A DNA stretch of 64,000 bases from Microbacterium luteum (lineage in GTDB: Bacteria > Actinomycetota > Actinomycetes > Actinomycetales > Microbacteriaceae), in the NCBI RefSeq assembly GCF_015277875.1, contig NZ_CP063814.1:2852001-2916000 (forward strand), read 5' to 3'. Positions within the stretch are counted from its first letter, which is position 1. Each line of letters begins with the position of its first letter. Shown here piece after piece: positions 1-11,151 of the stretch. The translations under genes and the position numbers were made by a program. The notes beneath the pieces are model-generated. The model saw only the letters and a program-made list of their open reading frames with translations. It was not told the DNA's origin and did no database searches.

Positions 1-1374
1 CCATTGGTGGACACCTTCGCCGTCGGGGTGATGTCGCAGGGCGGTGAGCTGCGGCTGGAGTTCCTCTGGTGCTTCCCGGTGGCGTGGATCGCCACGCACT
101 TCCCGGCGAGGTGGCTCGGGGCCGCCTTCGCGCTCATCTCCGCCGTCATCCTCTTCGAGGCGGTCGGGGCGGGAGCGACCTCGAGCATCACCCTGCGGTT
201 CGCGATCGTCGTGCTGTGTCTGGCGTTCCTCGGGGTGCTCTTCCGCCAGATGTCGCGCCGCACGACGGCCATGAAGTCCCTCCTGCGCAGCCAGGCCGAC
301 AGGACCCAGCGCACCCTCGCCCGCGTGTCGGCGCAGCAGGAGCGCGCCACCCAGATGTTCGACGGCGTGCCGATCGCCATCGCGCGGGTGACCCCCAACG
401 GCGACCTCGTCTCGCCCAACGCCGCCTACCTCACCCTCTACGGCATCGACCCCGACGATCCGACGCAGCCCCCTCGCACGGTCGACTACGAGTCGCAGCG
501 CGGTCGGGCGCTCTCCGCCGACGAGCGGCCCGTGCATCGCGCTGCCCGCGGCGAGCATCTCGACGGCGAGCGCGGCTGGGTGTTCGACACCACGGGGCAG
601 TGGCGTGCGGTGTCCGTCTCGACGCGGCCGCTGCCTCCGGTGGGCGATGAGAGCCCCAGCACGCTGCTCATGGTCCAGGACGTCACCGAGCTCACCCAGG
701 AGCGGCGCGGACGCGAGAACCTGGCCGCGGTGGTCTCCCACGAGCTGCGCACCCCCATCACCGTCATGCTCGGCAATGTCGACCTCATGCGCGACGACGA
801 CAACCTCACCCCCGAGCAGACCGGACGCCTCGACACGATCGACCGGGCTGCCGAGCGGATGCTCGCCCTCATCTCGAGCATCCTCACCACCGATCGCGAC
901 ACGTCGGTGCCGCACGAGCCGGTCTCCCTCGTGTCGCTGCTGCGCGAGTCCGTCACGTCGTTCTCGGCCGCCGCGCGCACCCGCGACCAGTCGCTCACCC
1001 TCGACATCGCCGGCACCTTCCGCCTGGCCGGCGACGCCTTCCGCCTGCGTCAGCTCATCGACAACATCCTCAGCAACGCCGTGAAGTACACGCCGAACGG
1101 CGGCACCATCCGCGTCGCCGCCCGTACGCACGACCAGCAGATCGAGGTGTCGATCAGCGACAGCGGCCTCGGCATCGCCGAGGAGGACATCCCGCACCTG
1201 TTCGACGACTACTTCCGCGCCCAGGAGGCCGTGGGCAGCGGCCTCCCCGGCTCGGGACTCGGCATGGGGATCGCCAAGGCCATCGCCGAGGCCCACGGCG
1301 GCACCATCCGCGTCGAGAGCACCGTCGGACGCGGCACCACCGTCACCATCACCCTCCCGGAGGACACCGCGTGA
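1..1374 (+). CDS. Sensor histidine kinase with PAS domain (5' end cut by window)
   Basis: Membrane histidine kinase of a two-component system. The reading frame is open to base 1, so the true start and further membrane helices probably lie outside the window; a TTG at 4 is the first in-window start and residue numbers count from it. The order is hydrophobic helices (about 18-85), a short coiled stretch, a PAS-like sensor domain (about 115-235), a HisKA domain with the phospho-acceptor in SHELRTP (His246), and a HATPase_c domain with the N-box (DNILSNAVKYT), the G1 box (DSGLGI) and the G2 box (GSGLGMGIAKA). The kinase motifs are intact. The next gene starts inside its stop codon (GTGA overlap). 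No response regulator is adjacent; the nearest is at 6957, a plausible partner by inference only. Confidence 0.9.
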   Translation, partial: PLVDTFAVGVMSQGGELRLEFLWCFPVAWIATHFPARWLGAAFALISAVILFEAVGAGATSSITLRFAIVVLCLAFLGVLFRQMSRRTTAMKSLLRSQADRTQRTLARVSAQQERATQMFDGVPIAIARVTPNGDLVSPNAAYLTLYGIDPDDPTQPPRTVDYESQRGRALSADERPVHRAARGEHLDGERGWVFDTTGQWRAVSVSTRPLPPVGDESPSTLLMVQDVTELTQERRGRENLAAVVSHELRTPITVMLGNVDLMRDDDNLTPEQTGRLDTIDRAAERMLALISSILTTDRDTSVPHEPVSLVSLLRESVTSFSAAARTRDQSLTLDIAGTFRLAGDAFRLRQLIDNILSNAVKYTPNGGTIRVAARTHDQQIEVSISDSGLGIAEEDIPHLFDDYFRAQEAVGSGLPGSGLGMGIAKAIAEAHGGTIRVESTVGRGTTVTITLPEDTA

Positions 1375-2555
1375 ACTCTGCCGTCGCCCTGAACCTCGGA
1401 ATCAGTCAAGCCACCGTCGCGACCCTCGCGACGGCCCTGATGATCGGTCTGGGATTCCTGCGCCGACCCTCGGCGGCCACCGCGCTGTGGTCGATGGCGT
1501 TCGTGCTCGCGATGATCACCTCCTATGCCTCGATCAGCGCCGAGGCGGCGACGCAGGAGTCCGCCCGCGTGGCCGCACTCGGTTTCATGCTGGGCGCGCC
1601 GGCGTTCATCTGGAGCGGCCTGCGCGCCGCCCGGGGCGCGGCGTCCTTCGCCTGGATCGCGCCGCTGCAGGCTCTGGTGTCAGCCAGCGTGCTCGTGGTG
1701 CTCGCCGGCACGCCCGGGTACAGCACCGGGTTCGCGCTGCTCTACTTCGCGTCGTCGCTCGTGGCGGGGCTGACCGCGTGGGAGCTCTTCCGACGCCCCG
1801 ACCGCGGCGGAGGGATGCTCCTGCCGCTCACCCTCGTCTCGGGCGTGTACACGCTGCTCGGAGCGCTCGTCGCGGTCGTCACGATCGCGACCGATCCGGC
1901 CGGCGGCGGCGACCTCGTACTGGTCCGCACGATCAACGCGGTCGCGATGATCGTCTACATGATCTGCGCACTGGTGTCGCTGCTCTTCCTGTCCGAGAAC
2001 CGCGACGACGGCCTCAGCCGACGCGGGAACGACCTGCGACGCGTGATGCAGGACCGCCTCGCCCGCGCCGAGGACCGTGACGACACGGCGTGGTCGCTGC
2101 TGACGATGACCCTCGACGATGTCGGCGACATCCGTGCCGCCGCGGGCGAGGGTGCGTTCACCGCGACCATGGAGCGCCTGATCGCGGATGCACGCGCCAC
2201 CTTCCCCGCCGAGTCCGACATCGGCCCGGGCGCCGGTCCGGGGTCGCTCGTCATCCTCGTCGCGCGCTCTGAAAACGAGGTCCGCGAGCACATGCGCGCG
2301 TTCCTGCGACGCCTGGGCACCATGCGGCCGGAGCAGCCGCTGGCCACGCAGCTGTCGGCCAGCATCGGATGGGCGCCGGTCCGCGAGGTCGGCTTCGATC
2401 TCGAAGCGCTCATCGCCGCCGCGGCCTCTGCCGAAGCAGAGGCGCGCGCCGCCGGCGGCGACGGCTGGTACCGCGTCGGGAATGCGCGGCGATCGGCCTT
2501 CCCCGCGATCGAGAAGGGCTCGACCCACAGCGGCTCCACACCGCCGGCCCCCTAG
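1371..2555 (+). CDS. Membrane protein with degenerate GGDEF-like domain
   Basis: 394 residues. The first half (about 8-205) is six to eight hydrophobic helices. The second half (about 220-370) has the layout of a GGDEF domain: a long helix, a central strand, then LSASIGWAPV, which matches the SIG strand, and a closing helix-strand ending AAGGDGWYRV. The GG(D/E)EF signature is replaced by GPGAGPGSLVI, so the diguanylate cyclase active site appears lost. It may be a pseudo-enzyme that binds a nucleotide or a partner. It is translated with the upstream histidine kinase through a GTG start overlapping that gene's TGA, which suggests one sensory unit. The GGDEF relation comes from pattern reading and needs a profile search. 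Confidence 0.7.
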   Translation: MNSAVALNLGISQATVATLATALMIGLGFLRRPSAATALWSMAFVLAMITSYASISAEAATQESARVAALGFMLGAPAFIWSGLRAARGAASFAWIAPLQALVSASVLVVLAGTPGYSTGFALLYFASSLVAGLTAWELFRRPDRGGGMLLPLTLVSGVYTLLGALVAVVTIATDPAGGGDLVLVRTINAVAMIVYMICALVSLLFLSENRDDGLSRRGNDLRRVMQDRLARAEDRDDTAWSLLTMTLDDVGDIRAAAGEGAFTATMERLIADARATFPAESDIGPGAGPGSLVILVARSENEVREHMRAFLRRLGTMRPEQPLATQLSASIGWAPVREVGFDLEALIAAAASAEAEARAAGGDGWYRVGNARRSAFPAIEKGSTHSGSTPPAP

Positions 2556-5822: not shown

Positions 5823-6845
5823 GTGACTGTACGTCCGGCACCCGTGCGGCGACGGTTCGGGATGCCGCGGTGGCTGCTGTTCACGCTGCTGGGCCTCGCC
5901 GCCGTCGTCACCCTGGCGATCCTCGCCGGGATCGGTTCGCTCATCACGTGGGGAGTGCAGACCCTGTCCGCCAGACCGCCCGCCGTCGGAACGACCGTCG
6001 TTGCCCCGGAGGAGTCCAAGGCCGCCCGTGCGCTCGACGACCTCACCGCGGGCTCCGCGGAGTACGAGGCGACCGCCTACCTCTCCGAGCAGCCCACCAC
6101 CTACTGGCTCACGCCGGAGGAGGATCCGATCGGCACCGCGACCGCGCGCGTGTCGAACCTCGCGTCCGAGGCCCGCGACACGGGTACGGCGCTCTCCGTC
6201 GCGGTCTACGGCCTGCCCGGACGCGACTGCGGCAGCTACTCCGCGGGCGGACTGGTCGAAGAGGACTACGCCACCTGGATCGACGAGATCGCGCGCGGCC
6301 TGGATGCGGCACCCGACGTGCAGAAGATCGTCATCCTCGAGCCGGACAGCCTGGCACTGGCACCCGAGTGCGGCAACGTCGAGGAACGCGTCCGTCAGCT
6401 GCGCAACGCCATCGATCGACTGACCGGCACGAACACCTGGATCTACGTCGACGGCGGACACTCCAACTGGCTCCCCGCCGCCGACATGGCCGCCCTCATC
6501 GAGGCCGTGGACCGCAGCGACGCCATCCGCGGGTTCGCCACCAACGTCTCCAACTACAACCACTCCACCGAGGAGTTCGCCTACGCGCACGAGCTGTCGG
6601 ACCTTCTCGGCGGCTCCCACGCGATCATCGACACATCGCGCTCCGGCGCGGGCTCCAACGGCGACTGGTGCAATCCCTCCGGCCGGCTGGTGGGTGAGCC
6701 GGGCGGAACCCTCGGCGACGAGGTTGTCGACACCAACCTCTGGGTCAAGCCGCCCGGCGAGAGCGACGGCACGTGCAACGGCGGTCCCGCCGCCGGCGTG
6801 TGGTGGCCCGAAGCGGCGGTCGAGCTCACCCGCGACGTTCGCTGA
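5823..6845 (+). CDS. Membrane-anchored glycoside hydrolase family 6 (endoglucanase / cellobiohydrolase type)
   Basis: 340 residues. One N-terminal membrane helix (about 16-45) anchors an extracytoplasmic GH6 domain (about 70-335). Family landmarks are in order: AVYGLPGRDC with Asp135-Cys136, LEPDSLA with the general acid Asp175, WIYVDGGHSNW, FATNVSNYN, IIDTSRSG, GDWCNPSGR and LWVKPPGESDGTC. All four structural cysteines of the family are kept (RDC, PEC, DWC, GTC). Established GH6 enzymes cleave beta-1,4-glucan with inversion. No cellulose-binding module is present and the enzyme is tethered, so trimming a self-made glucan is more likely than plant-cellulose digestion. The family-2 glycosyltransferase 1.2 kb downstream supports this. 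Start chosen from the leaderless promoter spacing. Confidence 0.93.
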   Translation: MTVRPAPVRRRFGMPRWLLFTLLGLAAVVTLAILAGIGSLITWGVQTLSARPPAVGTTVVAPEESKAARALDDLTAGSAEYEATAYLSEQPTTYWLTPEEDPIGTATARVSNLASEARDTGTALSVAVYGLPGRDCGSYSAGGLVEEDYATWIDEIARGLDAAPDVQKIVILEPDSLALAPECGNVEERVRQLRNAIDRLTGTNTWIYVDGGHSNWLPAADMAALIEAVDRSDAIRGFATNVSNYNHSTEEFAYAHELSDLLGGSHAIIDTSRSGAGSNGDWCNPSGRLVGEPGGTLGDEVVDTNLWVKPPGESDGTCNGGPAAGVWWPEAAVELTRDVR

Positions 6846-6956: not shown

Positions 6957-8018
6957 ATGACCGACCCATCGCTCGACCTCAAGACCGCCGTCATCGTCGA
7001 GGACGACCCGGACATCCGCCATCTCCTCCGCGAGGTGCTCGAGGCGGCCGGGTTCTCGACGGTGTCCGTCGGCAACGGGATCGACGGCGTCCGCGCGGTC
7101 ATGTCGTATCGGCCGCTGATCACCACCCTCGACGTGAACATGCCGGGGATCGACGGGTTCGAAGCCGCGCGCCGCATCCGCTCGCAGAGCGACACCTACA
7201 TCATCATGCTCACCGGGCTCGAGGATGAGGCCGACGTCGTGCTCGGGCTCGGCTCGGGCGCCGACGAGTACATCATCAAGCCCTTCCGTCCGCGCGAATT
7301 CCGTGCGCGCATCGACGCCATGCTGCGTCGCCCCCGGCAGGGCGCCCCCGCCCCGGCGGCGCCCCGGCAGGACTCGGTCGGTCCGTCGTTCCCCGGCGGC
7401 CGCAACACGTCGCGCGGCGCACAGCCTCCCGGATACGACGGCGACTCCGGCTGGGGCGTCGCCCCGGCGGTCGGCGAGGGGACCGACGGTTCGCACCGGA
7501 ACGGCTACGACGCGCCACGGCCCGAGATCGCACAGACCCCGGGCGACCCCGCGACCTACCGCCTGCCGCCTGGCGCCGACGCCCCGCCGCAGTGGAACGC
7601 GGCGGAGCCCGAGCGCCCCGCCCCCGGCACCGACATCGAACGCGCCACGCACGGCGGCGCGGTCGAACTCGCGGGCCCCTCGGTGATGACCCACCGCGAC
7701 CTGCAGGTCAATCCCGACAGCCGCGTCGTGGTCGTCGGCGGCGATCAGCTGGAGCTCACGCGCACCGAGTTCGACCTGCTCGCCACGCTCATGGAGTCCA
7801 AGCGTCGCGTGCGGAGCAAGGCCGACCTGACCCTGGTGCTGCGCGGCGAGTCCTACGTGACGTCGTATTTCGTCGGCGAGGCCGACAAGCGCGCCATCGA
7901 GGCCCACATGACGAACCTCCGCCGCAAGCTCGGCGACAACCCGAACAATCCGCGCTACATCGAGACGGTGCGCGGCGTCGGCTACCGCATGACCAGCGAA
8001 CTGACCGCCTCGAACTGA
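6957..8018 (+). CDS. OmpR-family response regulator with long proline-rich linker
   Basis: 353 residues. The receiver domain (about 10-125) has the acidic pocket IVEDDPD, the phospho-acceptor Asp59 in LDVNMPG, the switch Thr in MLTGLED and the Lys of KPFRPREF. The winged-helix DNA-binding domain (about 255-350) begins LQVNPDSRVV and ends YIETVRGVGYRM. Between them is an unusually long linker of about 125 residues rich in Pro, Gly and Ala, against a typical 10-20, which makes the protein about 120 residues longer than usual. The start at 6957 has a GGAG sequence eight bases upstream; an in-frame ATG at 6885 overlaps a promoter-like element and is less likely. Likely target: the CTTGAG repeats at 10422-10458. 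The partner kinase may be the one at 1-1374. Confidence 0.92.
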   Translation: MTDPSLDLKTAVIVEDDPDIRHLLREVLEAAGFSTVSVGNGIDGVRAVMSYRPLITTLDVNMPGIDGFEAARRIRSQSDTYIIMLTGLEDEADVVLGLGSGADEYIIKPFRPREFRARIDAMLRRPRQGAPAPAAPRQDSVGPSFPGGRNTSRGAQPPGYDGDSGWGVAPAVGEGTDGSHRNGYDAPRPEIAQTPGDPATYRLPPGADAPPQWNAAEPERPAPGTDIERATHGGAVELAGPSVMTHRDLQVNPDSRVVVVGGDQLELTRTEFDLLATLMESKRRVRSKADLTLVLRGESYVTSYFVGEADKRAIEAHMTNLRRKLGDNPNNPRYIETVRGVGYRMTSELTASN

Positions 8019-8087: not shown

Positions 8088-9572
8088 TCACACCTTGTAG
8101 CCCTGGTGGCGGCGGATGAGCTTGAAGAACATCAGCAGCGTCTGGATGACGGTCACGACACCCACGATCGGCCACCCGATCCACAGGATCGTCGACTGCA
8201 CCACCGGGTCGAGCATCGACCAGATCACCGCGAGGGCGACGAACACGGCCACGAGCAGGATGAGCGGGATCCAGTGGGTGCTGCCGCCACCCTTCTCCGC
8301 CTTGGCCTGCATCGCCCAGTTGTCGACCTTCTTGCGCGACAGGAAGCGGGTCCACGATCGCAGGAAGTGGCTCAGCCGGATCCACATGAAGATCTCGGCG
8401 GGGAAGACGAGCCCGGCGAACATCACGTCCCGCGAATTGCGGTTCTCCATCGTGTAGGCGATGCGCAGGTTCAGCAGCACGGCCATGAGCACCGGGATCA
8501 GCCACCATGCCGAGAAGACGAACGCGTTGATCGACAGCGACGCCGCCAGCAGGGTGATGAACGCGACGCGCACGAAGAGGTTCGTGAGCATGCCGAAGTT
8601 CTCGAACCAGCGCAGGCGCAGGTTCGGGTGGAACGGCTGGCCCTTCGTGTCGCCGCGCTGGCCGGGCCACATGAGCTCGATGGCACCGTAGGTCCACTTC
8701 ACCTGCTGGGCGTCGTAGCCGCGCAGCGTGGTCATGCCGCCGACGTCGGCCCGCGAGAACGGGCTGATCTTGGTGAGGTACCCGGCGCTCTTGATCTGCA
8801 GGGACAGCAGCGAGTCCTCCACTTCGCTGTCCTTGACCCACGGCGTCGACTGGTGGTTCTGACGCATCACCTCGCGAAGGGCGTTGGTGGAGAAGATCGA
8901 GAACTGTCCGCCCAGCACGGCCATGTTGCGCCCGCGCAGCAGGTTCTGCAGGTTGAACGCCGCGAACTGGGTGCGCTGACCGGCGATGAGGAACTTGCCG
9001 ATGAGGCCCTTGATGGGCCGGTCGTCGATCGAGTAGATCGCGGAGATGCCGCCGATGCGCGAGTCCGACACCGCCTCGGTCTCCAGGTACTCCACCGCGC
9101 GCGAATCGGCGGTGGTGTCGCCGTCCACCCCGAGCAGGTAGTCGTAGCCCTCCACGAGCGAGTAGCCGTAGTTGAGGGCGCCGACCTTCTTGTCGGGGTT
9201 CTTGCCGATGTCGTGCACGAAGACCTCGGTGAACTGCTCGCCCATCTCGGTCTCGAGTTCGTGGGCGCCGGCGAACTCTGACGCGATGCGCACCGTGGCA
9301 TCGGAGGTGTTGTTGACGACGACGTGGATCACATCCGGCACCCGCGTCTGGGCGAGGAGCGACTGGATGACGTCGGCGATCGACTCTTCCTCGTTGTACG
9401 CCGGAATGATGCATCCGATGGTCGACCGGTGGCCGGTGGTGTTCTCCAGCACCGCCGAGAAGTCGTCGGCGAAGCCGGGCTCGGACTCGGCACGGGGCTC
9501 GCGCGGCAGGATGGAATCGGGCGCGTGGACGGCGTGCGGTGTCATCTGCCGGGGGCTGTTGACGTCCGTCAT
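8088..9572 (-). CDS. Processive family-2 glycosyltransferase, multi-pass membrane protein
   Basis: 494 residues. The GT-A domain (about 50-300) shows IIPAYNEE, the nucleotide-sugar/metal motif DGD at 150-152, GGQFSIFS, the catalytic ED pair at 252-253, and QQVKW at 289-293, the counterpart of the Q(Q/R)xRW motif of cellulose, hyaluronan and chitin synthases. About five membrane helices follow (about 315-480). This motif set marks a processive polysaccharide synthase that moves the product through the membrane. No PilZ domain is present, so direct c-di-GMP control of the BcsA kind is not expected. The first 45 residues are polar and probably cytoplasmic. The ATG at 9572 has the strong site GAGGGAG. 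The lipoprotein gene starting at 10318 lies upstream on the same strand. The sugar is not identifiable from the sequence. Confidence 0.88.
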   Translation of the reverse strand: MTDVNSPRQMTPHAVHAPDSILPREPRAESEPGFADDFSAVLENTTGHRSTIGCIIPAYNEEESIADVIQSLLAQTRVPDVIHVVVNNTSDATVRIASEFAGAHELETEMGEQFTEVFVHDIGKNPDKKVGALNYGYSLVEGYDYLLGVDGDTTADSRAVEYLETEAVSDSRIGGISAIYSIDDRPIKGLIGKFLIAGQRTQFAAFNLQNLLRGRNMAVLGGQFSIFSTNALREVMRQNHQSTPWVKDSEVEDSLLSLQIKSAGYLTKISPFSRADVGGMTTLRGYDAQQVKWTYGAIELMWPGQRGDTKGQPFHPNLRLRWFENFGMLTNLFVRVAFITLLAASLSINAFVFSAWWLIPVLMAVLLNLRIAYTMENRNSRDVMFAGLVFPAEIFMWIRLSHFLRSWTRFLSRKKVDNWAMQAKAEKGGGSTHWIPLILLVAVFVALAVIWSMLDPVVQSTILWIGWPIVGVVTVIQTLLMFFKLIRRHQGYKV

Positions 9573-9592: not shown

Positions 9593-10318
9593 TCACTCTT
9601 CGGTCGTTGCGTCGGAGGATATCGCGATCGGCAGGTACTGGTACACGGTCTGCTGAGAGAACGACGTGTCGTCGTCGGCGACGCCCTCCACGGCGATCGT
9701 CATCGCGAATTCCAGCGTGATGCCGTACGTGTCCGCGGGCAGCTGGTTGATGGTCGTCTCGGGCACGAGCAGACCGCCCTGGTAACTGTTCAGCAGCAGA
9801 CCCCGGTCCGAGCGCAGGGTGTCCGTCGGCACGAGCGTGCGCGGGTCGGAGCTGAACTGGAACGGGTTCTGCACCTGGCCCGACGTCTGCGCGGTCTGCG
9901 AGGTGATCGAGATCGACGAGATGTACACGCGTCGCTTCTGTGTGAGCACGGCCTTCTCGTCCACGTAGTTGTCGTAGACGTTGACGGCGAAGCCGAACGT
10001 CTTCGGGGTCGTGGAATCCCACTCGTTCGTCCGTTTCGGATTCGCAGCCCACACCTCCAGACGCAGCTCGAGCTGATCGGCGACGTCGGTCGAGAGGGCG
10101 ACGGAGCCGTCATAGGTGAACAGCGAGTCGAAGGCGATGTCCTCGGTCGTCAGCGGCGTGGGGCTCGCGTAGGCGACCGGCTCCTCCGCGACGCCCGGCT
10201 GCTGCTGCAGCCCGTTGAACACCTCGGCCAGCTGCGAACAGCCGGCGAGGGAGACGGCGAGCCCGAAGGCTGCGCCGACGGCGAGGATGCGACGCGTGGC
10301 CGACGACGAGATGCTCAC
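9593..10318 (-). CDS. Lipoprotein of the exopolysaccharide-like locus
   Basis: 241 residues. A signal peptide ends in the lipobox SLAGC, so Cys27 would be lipidated and the protein sits on the outer face of the membrane. The mature part is beta-rich, with no family I recognise. It resembles the divergent lipoprotein at 10534: both have a strand like VYISSISI/VYLQSASM and a closing region with YGITLEF/AVQLQF followed by a final strand. The start is GTG at 10318 with GGAGCGGAA ahead; longer in-frame starts add a stretch before the signal peptide. It ends 20 bases before the glycosyltransferase start, so the two are probably co-transcribed and the lipoprotein may assist the synthase outside the cell. 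Confidence 0.8.
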   Translation of the reverse strand: MSISSSATRRILAVGAAFGLAVSLAGCSQLAEVFNGLQQQPGVAEEPVAYASPTPLTTEDIAFDSLFTYDGSVALSTDVADQLELRLEVWAANPKRTNEWDSTTPKTFGFAVNVYDNYVDEKAVLTQKRRVYISSISITSQTAQTSGQVQNPFQFSSDPRTLVPTDTLRSDRGLLLNSYQGGLLVPETTINQLPADTYGITLEFAMTIAVEGVADDDTSFSQQTVYQYLPIAISSDATTEE

Positions 10319-10421
10319 GATGTTCCGCTCCAGGTTCAGGGGTGCCGCCGGGCTTCGGGTCCCCGGCGGCGTCTCGGGGATTCCCCGCGACAACACACAG
10401 GCAACCACGCCGATCACGCGT

Positions 10422-10458
10422 CTTGAGGTTCTTGAGCTTGTCTTGAGCGAGCCTTGAG
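10422..10458 (+). promoter_or_regulatory. Four CTTGAG direct repeats, likely response-regulator operator
   Basis: CTTGAG occurs at 10422, 10431, 10442 and 10453, start-to-start steps of 9, 11 and 11 bases, all in the same orientation. OmpR/PhoB-family regulators bind tandem direct repeats with one-helical-turn spacing, and such a regulator is encoded at 6957. The array lies between two divergent lipoprotein genes. A TACCCT box at 10470-10475 is 11 bases beyond the last repeat, the geometry of activator-dependent promoters in which the repeats stand in for the -35 box. Confidence 0.65.
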
Positions 10459-10469
10459 GCTCGCGCCTC

Positions 10470-10506
10470 TACCCTCGGTCGGCGGGCGTCGCGGCTCTCG
10501 TAAGCT
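10470..10506 (+). promoter_or_regulatory. Candidate -10 boxes for the lipoprotein gene at 10534
   Basis: Two TANNNT boxes are present: TACCCT at 10470-10475, directly after the CTTGAG array, and TAAGCT at 10501-10506. Neither has a good -35 hexamer, which fits activation by a bound regulator. Which one is used cannot be told from sequence. Confidence 0.4.
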
Positions 10507-10533
10507 GGGGAGCACACGGAGCCGGGAGGGCAC

Positions 10534-11151
10534 ATGGGAACAGCACGACGCGTCGGCACGGCGACGGCGGCCGCGGCTCTCGCCCTGGCTCTCGCCGGAT
10601 GCGGCCCCGCGCCGTGGGAATACGGCGACGGCGGCGACGCCACCCCGACCCCCACCCGCACCTCCGCCTCCCCGGCACCCGCGCCGGTGCCGAACGACCT
10701 CTCGAGCGGTTCGACGCAGCGCGAGCTCGTCGCCGGTGCCGTCACCGCGACCGTGGACTACTGGTCGACGCTGTCGATGGACCTGTGGACCGCGGAGGCG
10801 GTGAAGCCCGTGAGCATCTCGATGGTCACCGAGGTCACCCCTGACGACGGCCAGAAGGTGTACCTGCAGAGCGCATCGATGGTCGCCGTCGCCCTCGATG
10901 CCGACGGCGTGACGATCGACGCCCTCGATCCGCAGACCGACACTTCCGCCGTCTCGCCCGGCTACCTCGTGCTCTCGCCGTACAGCTACTCGCAGACCTT
11001 CAACGTCGGCGCCGTGCCCGCGGACACCGCCGCCGTGCAGCTCCAGTTCACCTACGACTTCCTCGTGCAGACGACTCCCACGTCGAAGGAGTACGCCAAG
11101 CAGACCGCGAGCGACACGCTCACCGTCGCCATCTTCCAGCCCGGCGAGTAG
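10534..11151 (+). CDS. Lipoprotein, divergent partner of the one at 9593-10318
   Basis: 205 residues. The signal peptide ends in the lipobox ALAGC with Cys23 as the lipidation site. A Pro/Thr/Ser-rich spacer (about 30-55) is followed by a beta-rich domain of about 145 residues with no recognised family. Length, strand order and the closing pattern resemble the divergent lipoprotein across the CTTGAG array, so the two are probably distant paralogues under one control region. GGGAGGG lies just before the ATG at 10534. Its C-terminal end converges on truA. Confidence 0.78.
   Translation: MGTARRVGTATAAAALALALAGCGPAPWEYGDGGDATPTPTRTSASPAPAPVPNDLSSGSTQRELVAGAVTATVDYWSTLSMDLWTAEAVKPVSISMVTEVTPDDGQKVYLQSASMVAVALDADGVTIDALDPQTDTSAVSPGYLVLSPYSYSQTFNVGAVPADTAAVQLQFTYDFLVQTTPTSKEYAKQTASDTLTVAIFQPGE

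Follow-up and report, generated by a model that had tools for sequence, protein, structure and literature searches.

The question raised by this locus is what acts at a short array of identical words lying between two divergent lipoprotein genes of Microbacterium luteum. The array lies within the 64,000-nucleotide stretch of DNA analysed here, referred to below as the window, and consists of four CTTGAG direct repeats in + orientation at 10422..10427, 10431..10436, 10442..10447 and 10453..10458, with steps of 9, 11 and 11 bp, exactly as the sequence-only reading had described it. That reading gave the 9-bp first step correctly and left unsaid that this step is at odds with a single strict 11-bp register: repeats 2, 3 and 4 share such a register, and repeat 1 begins 9 bp before repeat 2. 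The flanking genes, lip1 (9593..10321, − strand) and lip2 (10534..11151, + strand), are divergent and each encodes a putative lipoprotein, with a signal peptide and an LAGC motif recognized by eye; neither product has a Pfam match, and that of lip1 has no NCBIfam match either. The structure model of the lip1 product is weak (mean pLDDT 61.8), and its PDB matches were given no weight. Judged from sequence comparison, the array is very probably an operator of the OmpR/PhoB type serving a surface-polysaccharide and lipoprotein cluster. This site class had already been proposed for it, and the proposal gains support from the recurrence of 11-bp arrays at orthologous promoters and from their clustering around the gene of the candidate regulator RR1.

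The word alone is not enriched in the window, where 20 matches to CTTGAG compare with 15.8 expected. Its clustering is another matter: not one of 2000 dinucleotide shuffles of the intergenic stretch 10322-10533 had even two copies within 40 bp on the + strand. When the whole window was shuffled 100 times and read on both strands, no cluster exceeded two copies. Five occurrences of CTTGAG-N3..6-CTTGAG were found in the 3.52-Mb genome, three of them being the window array itself and the other two having N6 spacing. The genome matches at 1356219 and 2878409 lie inside long open frames, which we take from their sequences to be those of nicotinate phosphoribosyltransferase and ribosomal protein L6, and were set aside as chance matches. 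A scan for CTTGAG-N5-CTTGAG, suggested in the earlier reading, found the exact pair in the window array and nowhere else in the 3.52 Mb. The CTTGAG cluster in the window is real, beyond chance and conserved.

The genes around the array form a recognizable set. Downstream of lip1 on the − strand lies GT2 (8088..9566), a family 2 glycosyltransferase that weakly resembles PgaC/IcaA, scoring 56.5 bits where the cut-off is 422.3; the gap of 26 bp suggests that GT2 and lip1 probably form one transcript. RR1 (6957..8018, + strand), the OmpR/PhoB-type regulator gene previously noted 2.4 kb away, does end 2.4 kb from repeat 1 and encodes a response regulator with a receiver and a Trans_reg_C domain joined by a long linker. 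It has no adjacent kinase gene, and in relatives it is often adjoined by a gene for a GH6 family glycoside hydrolase, here at 5823..6845 (+ strand). A second regulator, RR2 (L094 5958-6725), has its gene outside the window but close to it: the gene stops about 0.3 kb short of position 1, directly upstream of a histidine kinase gene whose in-window part occupies 1..1374 on the + strand (whole gene L094 6731-8374). The kinase gene is followed at 1371..2555 (+ strand) by one whose product has no Pfam match and looks GGDEF-like by eye, so that the gene run reads RR2, kinase, GGDEF-like protein, DUF4012. About 80 bp before the start of RR2, taken at L094 5958, there is a CTTGCG-N5-CTTGCG pair. Of the 40 wide Microbacterium loci retrieved, 30 contain a homologue of this kinase, which lies between lip1 and lip2, upstream of DUF4012, or at some other place in the locus.

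The fate of the array in relatives was followed through lip1, a match to which was found in 48 of 149 sampled genomes of the genus; five weak matches (E 4.4e-5 to 8.8e-4) were left out, and 43 strong ones remained. RR1 is present in 42 of these 43, the exception being G080 (L063). Forty-one genomes, namely our own window and L046-L085, were compared with wide flanks, G016 and G044 lying outside this set. In 34 of the 41 the 330 bp preceding lip1 or GT2 contain a CTTGMG array, mostly of 11-bp period (upstream of lip1 in 14, upstream of GT2 in 25 of 39), and shuffling of the same upstream stretches over 20 rounds gave a mean of 0.05 genomes with an array and a maximum of 1. The seven without an array in the tested lip1 and GT2 upstream windows, which weigh against the operator reading, are L060, L062, L063, L064, L065, L078 and L082; in L064 an array stands upstream of lip2 instead, and in L062, where two further genes of the cluster enclose it, as well as in L068, one lies in the gap before an EEP gene, with no clear target. 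The same 9-11-11 array is found upstream of lip1 in L007, L008 and L009, its last two units being CTTGCG in L008 and L009, and CTTGCG likewise takes the place of repeats 3 and 4 in L047/L048. Other variants upstream of lip1 are CTTCAG-N5-CTTGCG-N5-CTTGAG in L010, L017, L037, L038 and L040, and CTTTAC-N5-CTTGAG-N3-CTTGAG in L039 and L042-L045; the N3-spaced pair formed in the window by repeats 1 and 2 is thus also present in relatives (e.g., L007, L039 and L042-L045). The sequence-only reading would have been given up had the repeats been missing from orthologous intergenic regions, and it is in these regions that arrays recur.

Several further observations concern lip1 and its genomes. In the locus fetched from G080, the sole genome with a strong lip1 match and no RR1 match, GT2 is represented by a fragment only, and a single exact CTTGCG unit stands upstream of lip1. 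An exact pattern finds, in 16 of the 149 genus genomes, a leader upstream of lip1 that contains two nearly invariant blocks; the leader is absent from the window, and among its carriers are L011, L012, L014 and L019-L022. The blocks measure 22 and 45 nt in eight aligned sequences and surround a variable hairpin. The leader had no match in Rfam at gathering scores, and for one locus none at E<=1. Its consensus fold, in which CCATC is closed by GATGG, has two-sided changes in 3 of 40 pairs, all within the variable hairpin, and a slightly unfavourable covariation term; the leader is a possible new cis-regulatory RNA. It is also worth recording that in G047:C1 one lip1 match is found twice with the same score, close to either end of the contig, as would be the case if a circular chromosome had been left with an end overlap of about 23 kb.

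Beyond the genus the comparison was made through GT2, close relatives of which were found in 39 of 299 sampled genomes of the family, representing 17 of 85 genera. The best 30 of these loci were compared: our own, 28 from 10 other genera and one more from Microbacterium (G045). The usual gene order in the 10 other genera is RR / GT2 / lip2; among the 29 loci besides our own, a response-regulator match adjoins GT2 in all but L120 and L122 (27 loci), and GT2 and lip2 are divergently arranged in all but L099 and L124 (again 27). A position weight matrix for 11-bp triple repeats, trained only in Microbacterium, scored the stretch upstream of GT2 above all 200 shuffles in 27 of the 29 loci, with p values of 0.015 and 0.020 in the other two, and gave scores below zero in all 28 control stretches downstream of GT2 (L120 gave none). 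The array is sense to GT2 in 28 of the 29, and in the window it is sense to lip2 and antisense to lip1-GT2; this difference in orientation, together with the 9-bp first step that breaks the 11-bp register, counts against the operator reading. The 28 loci from other genera, with their 1.5-kb flanks, gave no lip1 match; the gene was therefore apparently inserted between GT2 and lip2 in Microbacterium, which would place the window array in the older divergent promoter. At the level of the order 20 loci were returned, 18 of them new; arrays were present at p<=0.035 in five of seven loci with an RR match (not in L191 and L204) and at p<=0.01 in three of ten whose 1.5-kb flank has no such match; in L200, where the RR matches are fragmentary, no array was seen. 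The link between array and regulator is looser across the order than within the family.

The relation of the arrays to promoter elements also recurs. A TACCCT box on the + strand (10470..10475) had been put forward as the −10 element of an activator-dependent promoter; it does lie 11 bp past repeat 4, but it is absent from that place in the closest relative, L007/L036, and was rejected in this role. A better candidate for the −10 element of lip2 is, more likely, TAAGCT (10501..10506, + strand), which starts 42 bp past repeat 4, because a counterpart, TAGACT, occurs 44 bp past the last repeat in L036, a distance of 42-44 bp thus being shared with the relative. Of 51 GT2 promoters, 28 have, at a distance of exactly 43 bp downstream of the second repeat, the start of a −10-like hexamer resembling CAGAST, although the regular expression was written post hoc, after inspection of the sequences, and the species are not independent. 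Three more GT2 promoters have it at 42 or 44 bp, and other positions gave 4 matches in 3414. By genus, the hexamer at 43 bp is found in 14 of 25 Microbacterium promoters, in 4/6, 5/5, 2/3 and 3/3 of those from four other genera, and in 0/9 from the four genera left; the expression used for this count detected no array in L106 or L121. In 18 of the 51 a further CTTG(A/C/T)G unit stands in register at +27 and ends 10 bp before the −10-like place, a geometry that an activator replacing the −35 element would be expected to have and that would point to activation rather than repression. As judged by eye, a TAGACT/TAGAAT box lies 12 bp past the last unit in L008 and L009, and in several lip1 promoters, those of L042, L043, L065, L069 and L078 among them, a TAnnnT box stands some 60 bp from the array; the lip1 promoter of the window has no obvious TAnnnT box at such a distance from the array.

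The association with RR1 was counted with exact CTTGMG-N5-CTTGMG pairs, overlapping pairs of one array being counted apart, and with RR1 matches at E<=1e-60; for G104, whose regulator gene is broken across two contigs, the part sharing a contig with GT2 was used. The 69 genus genomes with RR1 have 140 exact pairs in all; 64 of these, from 47 genomes, are no more than 5 kb from RR1, with 0.44 expected, and among RR1-bearing genomes with no strong lip1 match such a pair is near RR1 in 18 of 27. The 80 genomes without an RR1 match have 1.00 pairs per genome and those with RR1 have 2.03, including 1.10 at a distance from it, so the higher count is due to the sites beside RR1. Weighing against the operator reading, the genome-wide total of pairs is not above that of a reversed-pattern control (4 against 2 in our own genome, with the control higher in many genomes of the genus). 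From the 76 remote sites, 19 loci, chosen mostly for overlapping pairs, were inspected. The array precedes a glycosyltransferase gene in seven of them: an approximately 780-aa membrane glycosyltransferase in L158, L159, L160, L162 and L169, and another GT2 with a GH16-like gene nearby in L165 and L168. The neighbours in the other 12 are a large secreted protein, hydrolases, NUDIX-type genes and unclear frames, all these names having been given by eye. The remote targets would point to control of cell-surface polysaccharide. In our own genome a possible site, CTTGAG-N5-CTTGGC, was noted by eye upstream of the approximately 780-aa GT2. In genomes without an RR1 match, at least 5 of the 11 loci inspected (L130, L135, L142, L146 and L152) have CTTGAG-N5-CTTGAG around locus position 1501, with a kinase/lipoprotein pair on one side and an ABC-transporter ATPase gene on the other (names by eye); because of this other locus, the word is not exclusive to the GT2/lip cluster.

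Regulators of the OmpR/PhoB family are described as binding direct repeats, and for PhoP of M. tuberculosis 7-bp words with a required 4-bp spacer, that is, an 11-bp period, have been reported, together with binding extendable to trimers and tetramers and an approximately 20-fold loss of affinity when the spacer is 1 bp shorter (PMC4832192). A tandem PhoB dimer covers the −35 region, according to PMC3348028. The arrays resemble such operators in being direct repeats and, like PhoP sites as described there, in having an 11-bp period and more than two units; they differ in their word, CTTGMG as opposed to TCACAGC, in the single 9-bp step of the window, in the longer loop preceding the recognition helix of RR1 and RR2, and in their targets, a surface-glycan cluster. 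The actinobacterial MtrA of the MtrAB system is also similar to these regulators, the best PDB match of RR1 by sequence being 2gwr (E 7.6e-38) and the best NCBIfam match of both RR1 and RR2 being MtrA. With 160.5 and 158.9 bits, respectively, against a cut-off of 300, neither is MtrA by the NCBIfam model, and the MtrA-like protein of the genome, labelled by eye, is encoded by a separate gene at genome 2378178.

RR1 is a plausible binder of the array, as judged from its sequence and position, though not the sole candidate. It is possible, if rather doubtful, that the repeats are bound by RR2, paired with the kinase encoded next to it, and that RR1 acts there as a modulator or a competitor. RR2 adjoins a kinase gene and has a CTTGCG-N5-CTTGCG site of its own, and it shares with RR1 a loop insertion, 55% identity over the aligned part of the DNA-binding domains and a very similar recognition helix, placed according to the general fold of such domains. 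Yet the excess of sites centres on RR1, and in 10 other genera the regulator directly beside GT2 occupies the place of RR1. Nor is the insertion confined to the pair: among the 11 Trans_reg_C proteins of the genome it is present at full length in three, RR1, RR2 and the protein at genome 3256073, which have similar recognition helices, while that in L188 is shorter.

The words might instead be overlapping −35 (TTGAnn) elements, or a chance or slippage duplication with no dedicated regulator. TTGA does resemble a −35 element and slippage can generate tandem words, but such an origin is improbable, as the words stay while the spacers vary between species, and 11-bp-period arrays occur in both orientations in the 34 of 41 genomes and in other genera. 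A heat-shock operator bound by HspR is hardly credible: HAIR shares the word CTTGAG, being quoted in a review as CTTGAGT-N7-ACTCAAG (PMC9775585), but it is an inverted repeat with N7, whereas all four words of the window point the same way, no CTCAAG occurs on the + strand of the surrounding 390-bp stretch, and no chaperone gene is among the compared neighbours. An RNA hairpin or terminator at 10447-10464, where a perfect stem of 7 bp, capped by a TTGA loop, overlaps repeat 4, is equally hard to credit, as the stem is lost in L007/L036 while the repeats are kept, no T run follows, and an Rfam search of the window gave no match at gathering scores, which also led to rejection of a known RNA there.

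In the operator reading, one or more phosphorylation-controlled OmpR/PhoB-type response regulators would bind head to tail along the CTTGMG direct repeats, controlling two divergent promoters, that of lip2 and that of lip1-GT2. The binder would be RR1, its paralogue RR2, or both; phosphorylation would come from the neighbouring kinase, and the outcome would be activation rather than repression. A broader proposal, put forward tentatively and with somewhat more doubt than confidence, is a two-component regulon of the whole family Microbacteriaceae, in which the paralogues RR1, a long-linker orphan, and RR2, linked to a kinase, may read one CTTGMG code of 11-bp period, the operator flipping in orientation and moving between the lip1, lip2, GT2 and kinase/regulator promoters while roughly keeping its helical phase to the −10 element. 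Such a regulon is apparently new to the literature; the titles and abstract openings among the matches listed describe no CTTGMG motif or regulon, which is weak evidence of absence. For the Microbacteriaceae it would amount to a small, testable regulon comprising a surface glycosyltransferase, two lipoproteins and a kinase-regulator operon, and the combination of a concrete DNA code with two paralogous candidate regulators would make crosstalk between paralogues on one operator directly testable.
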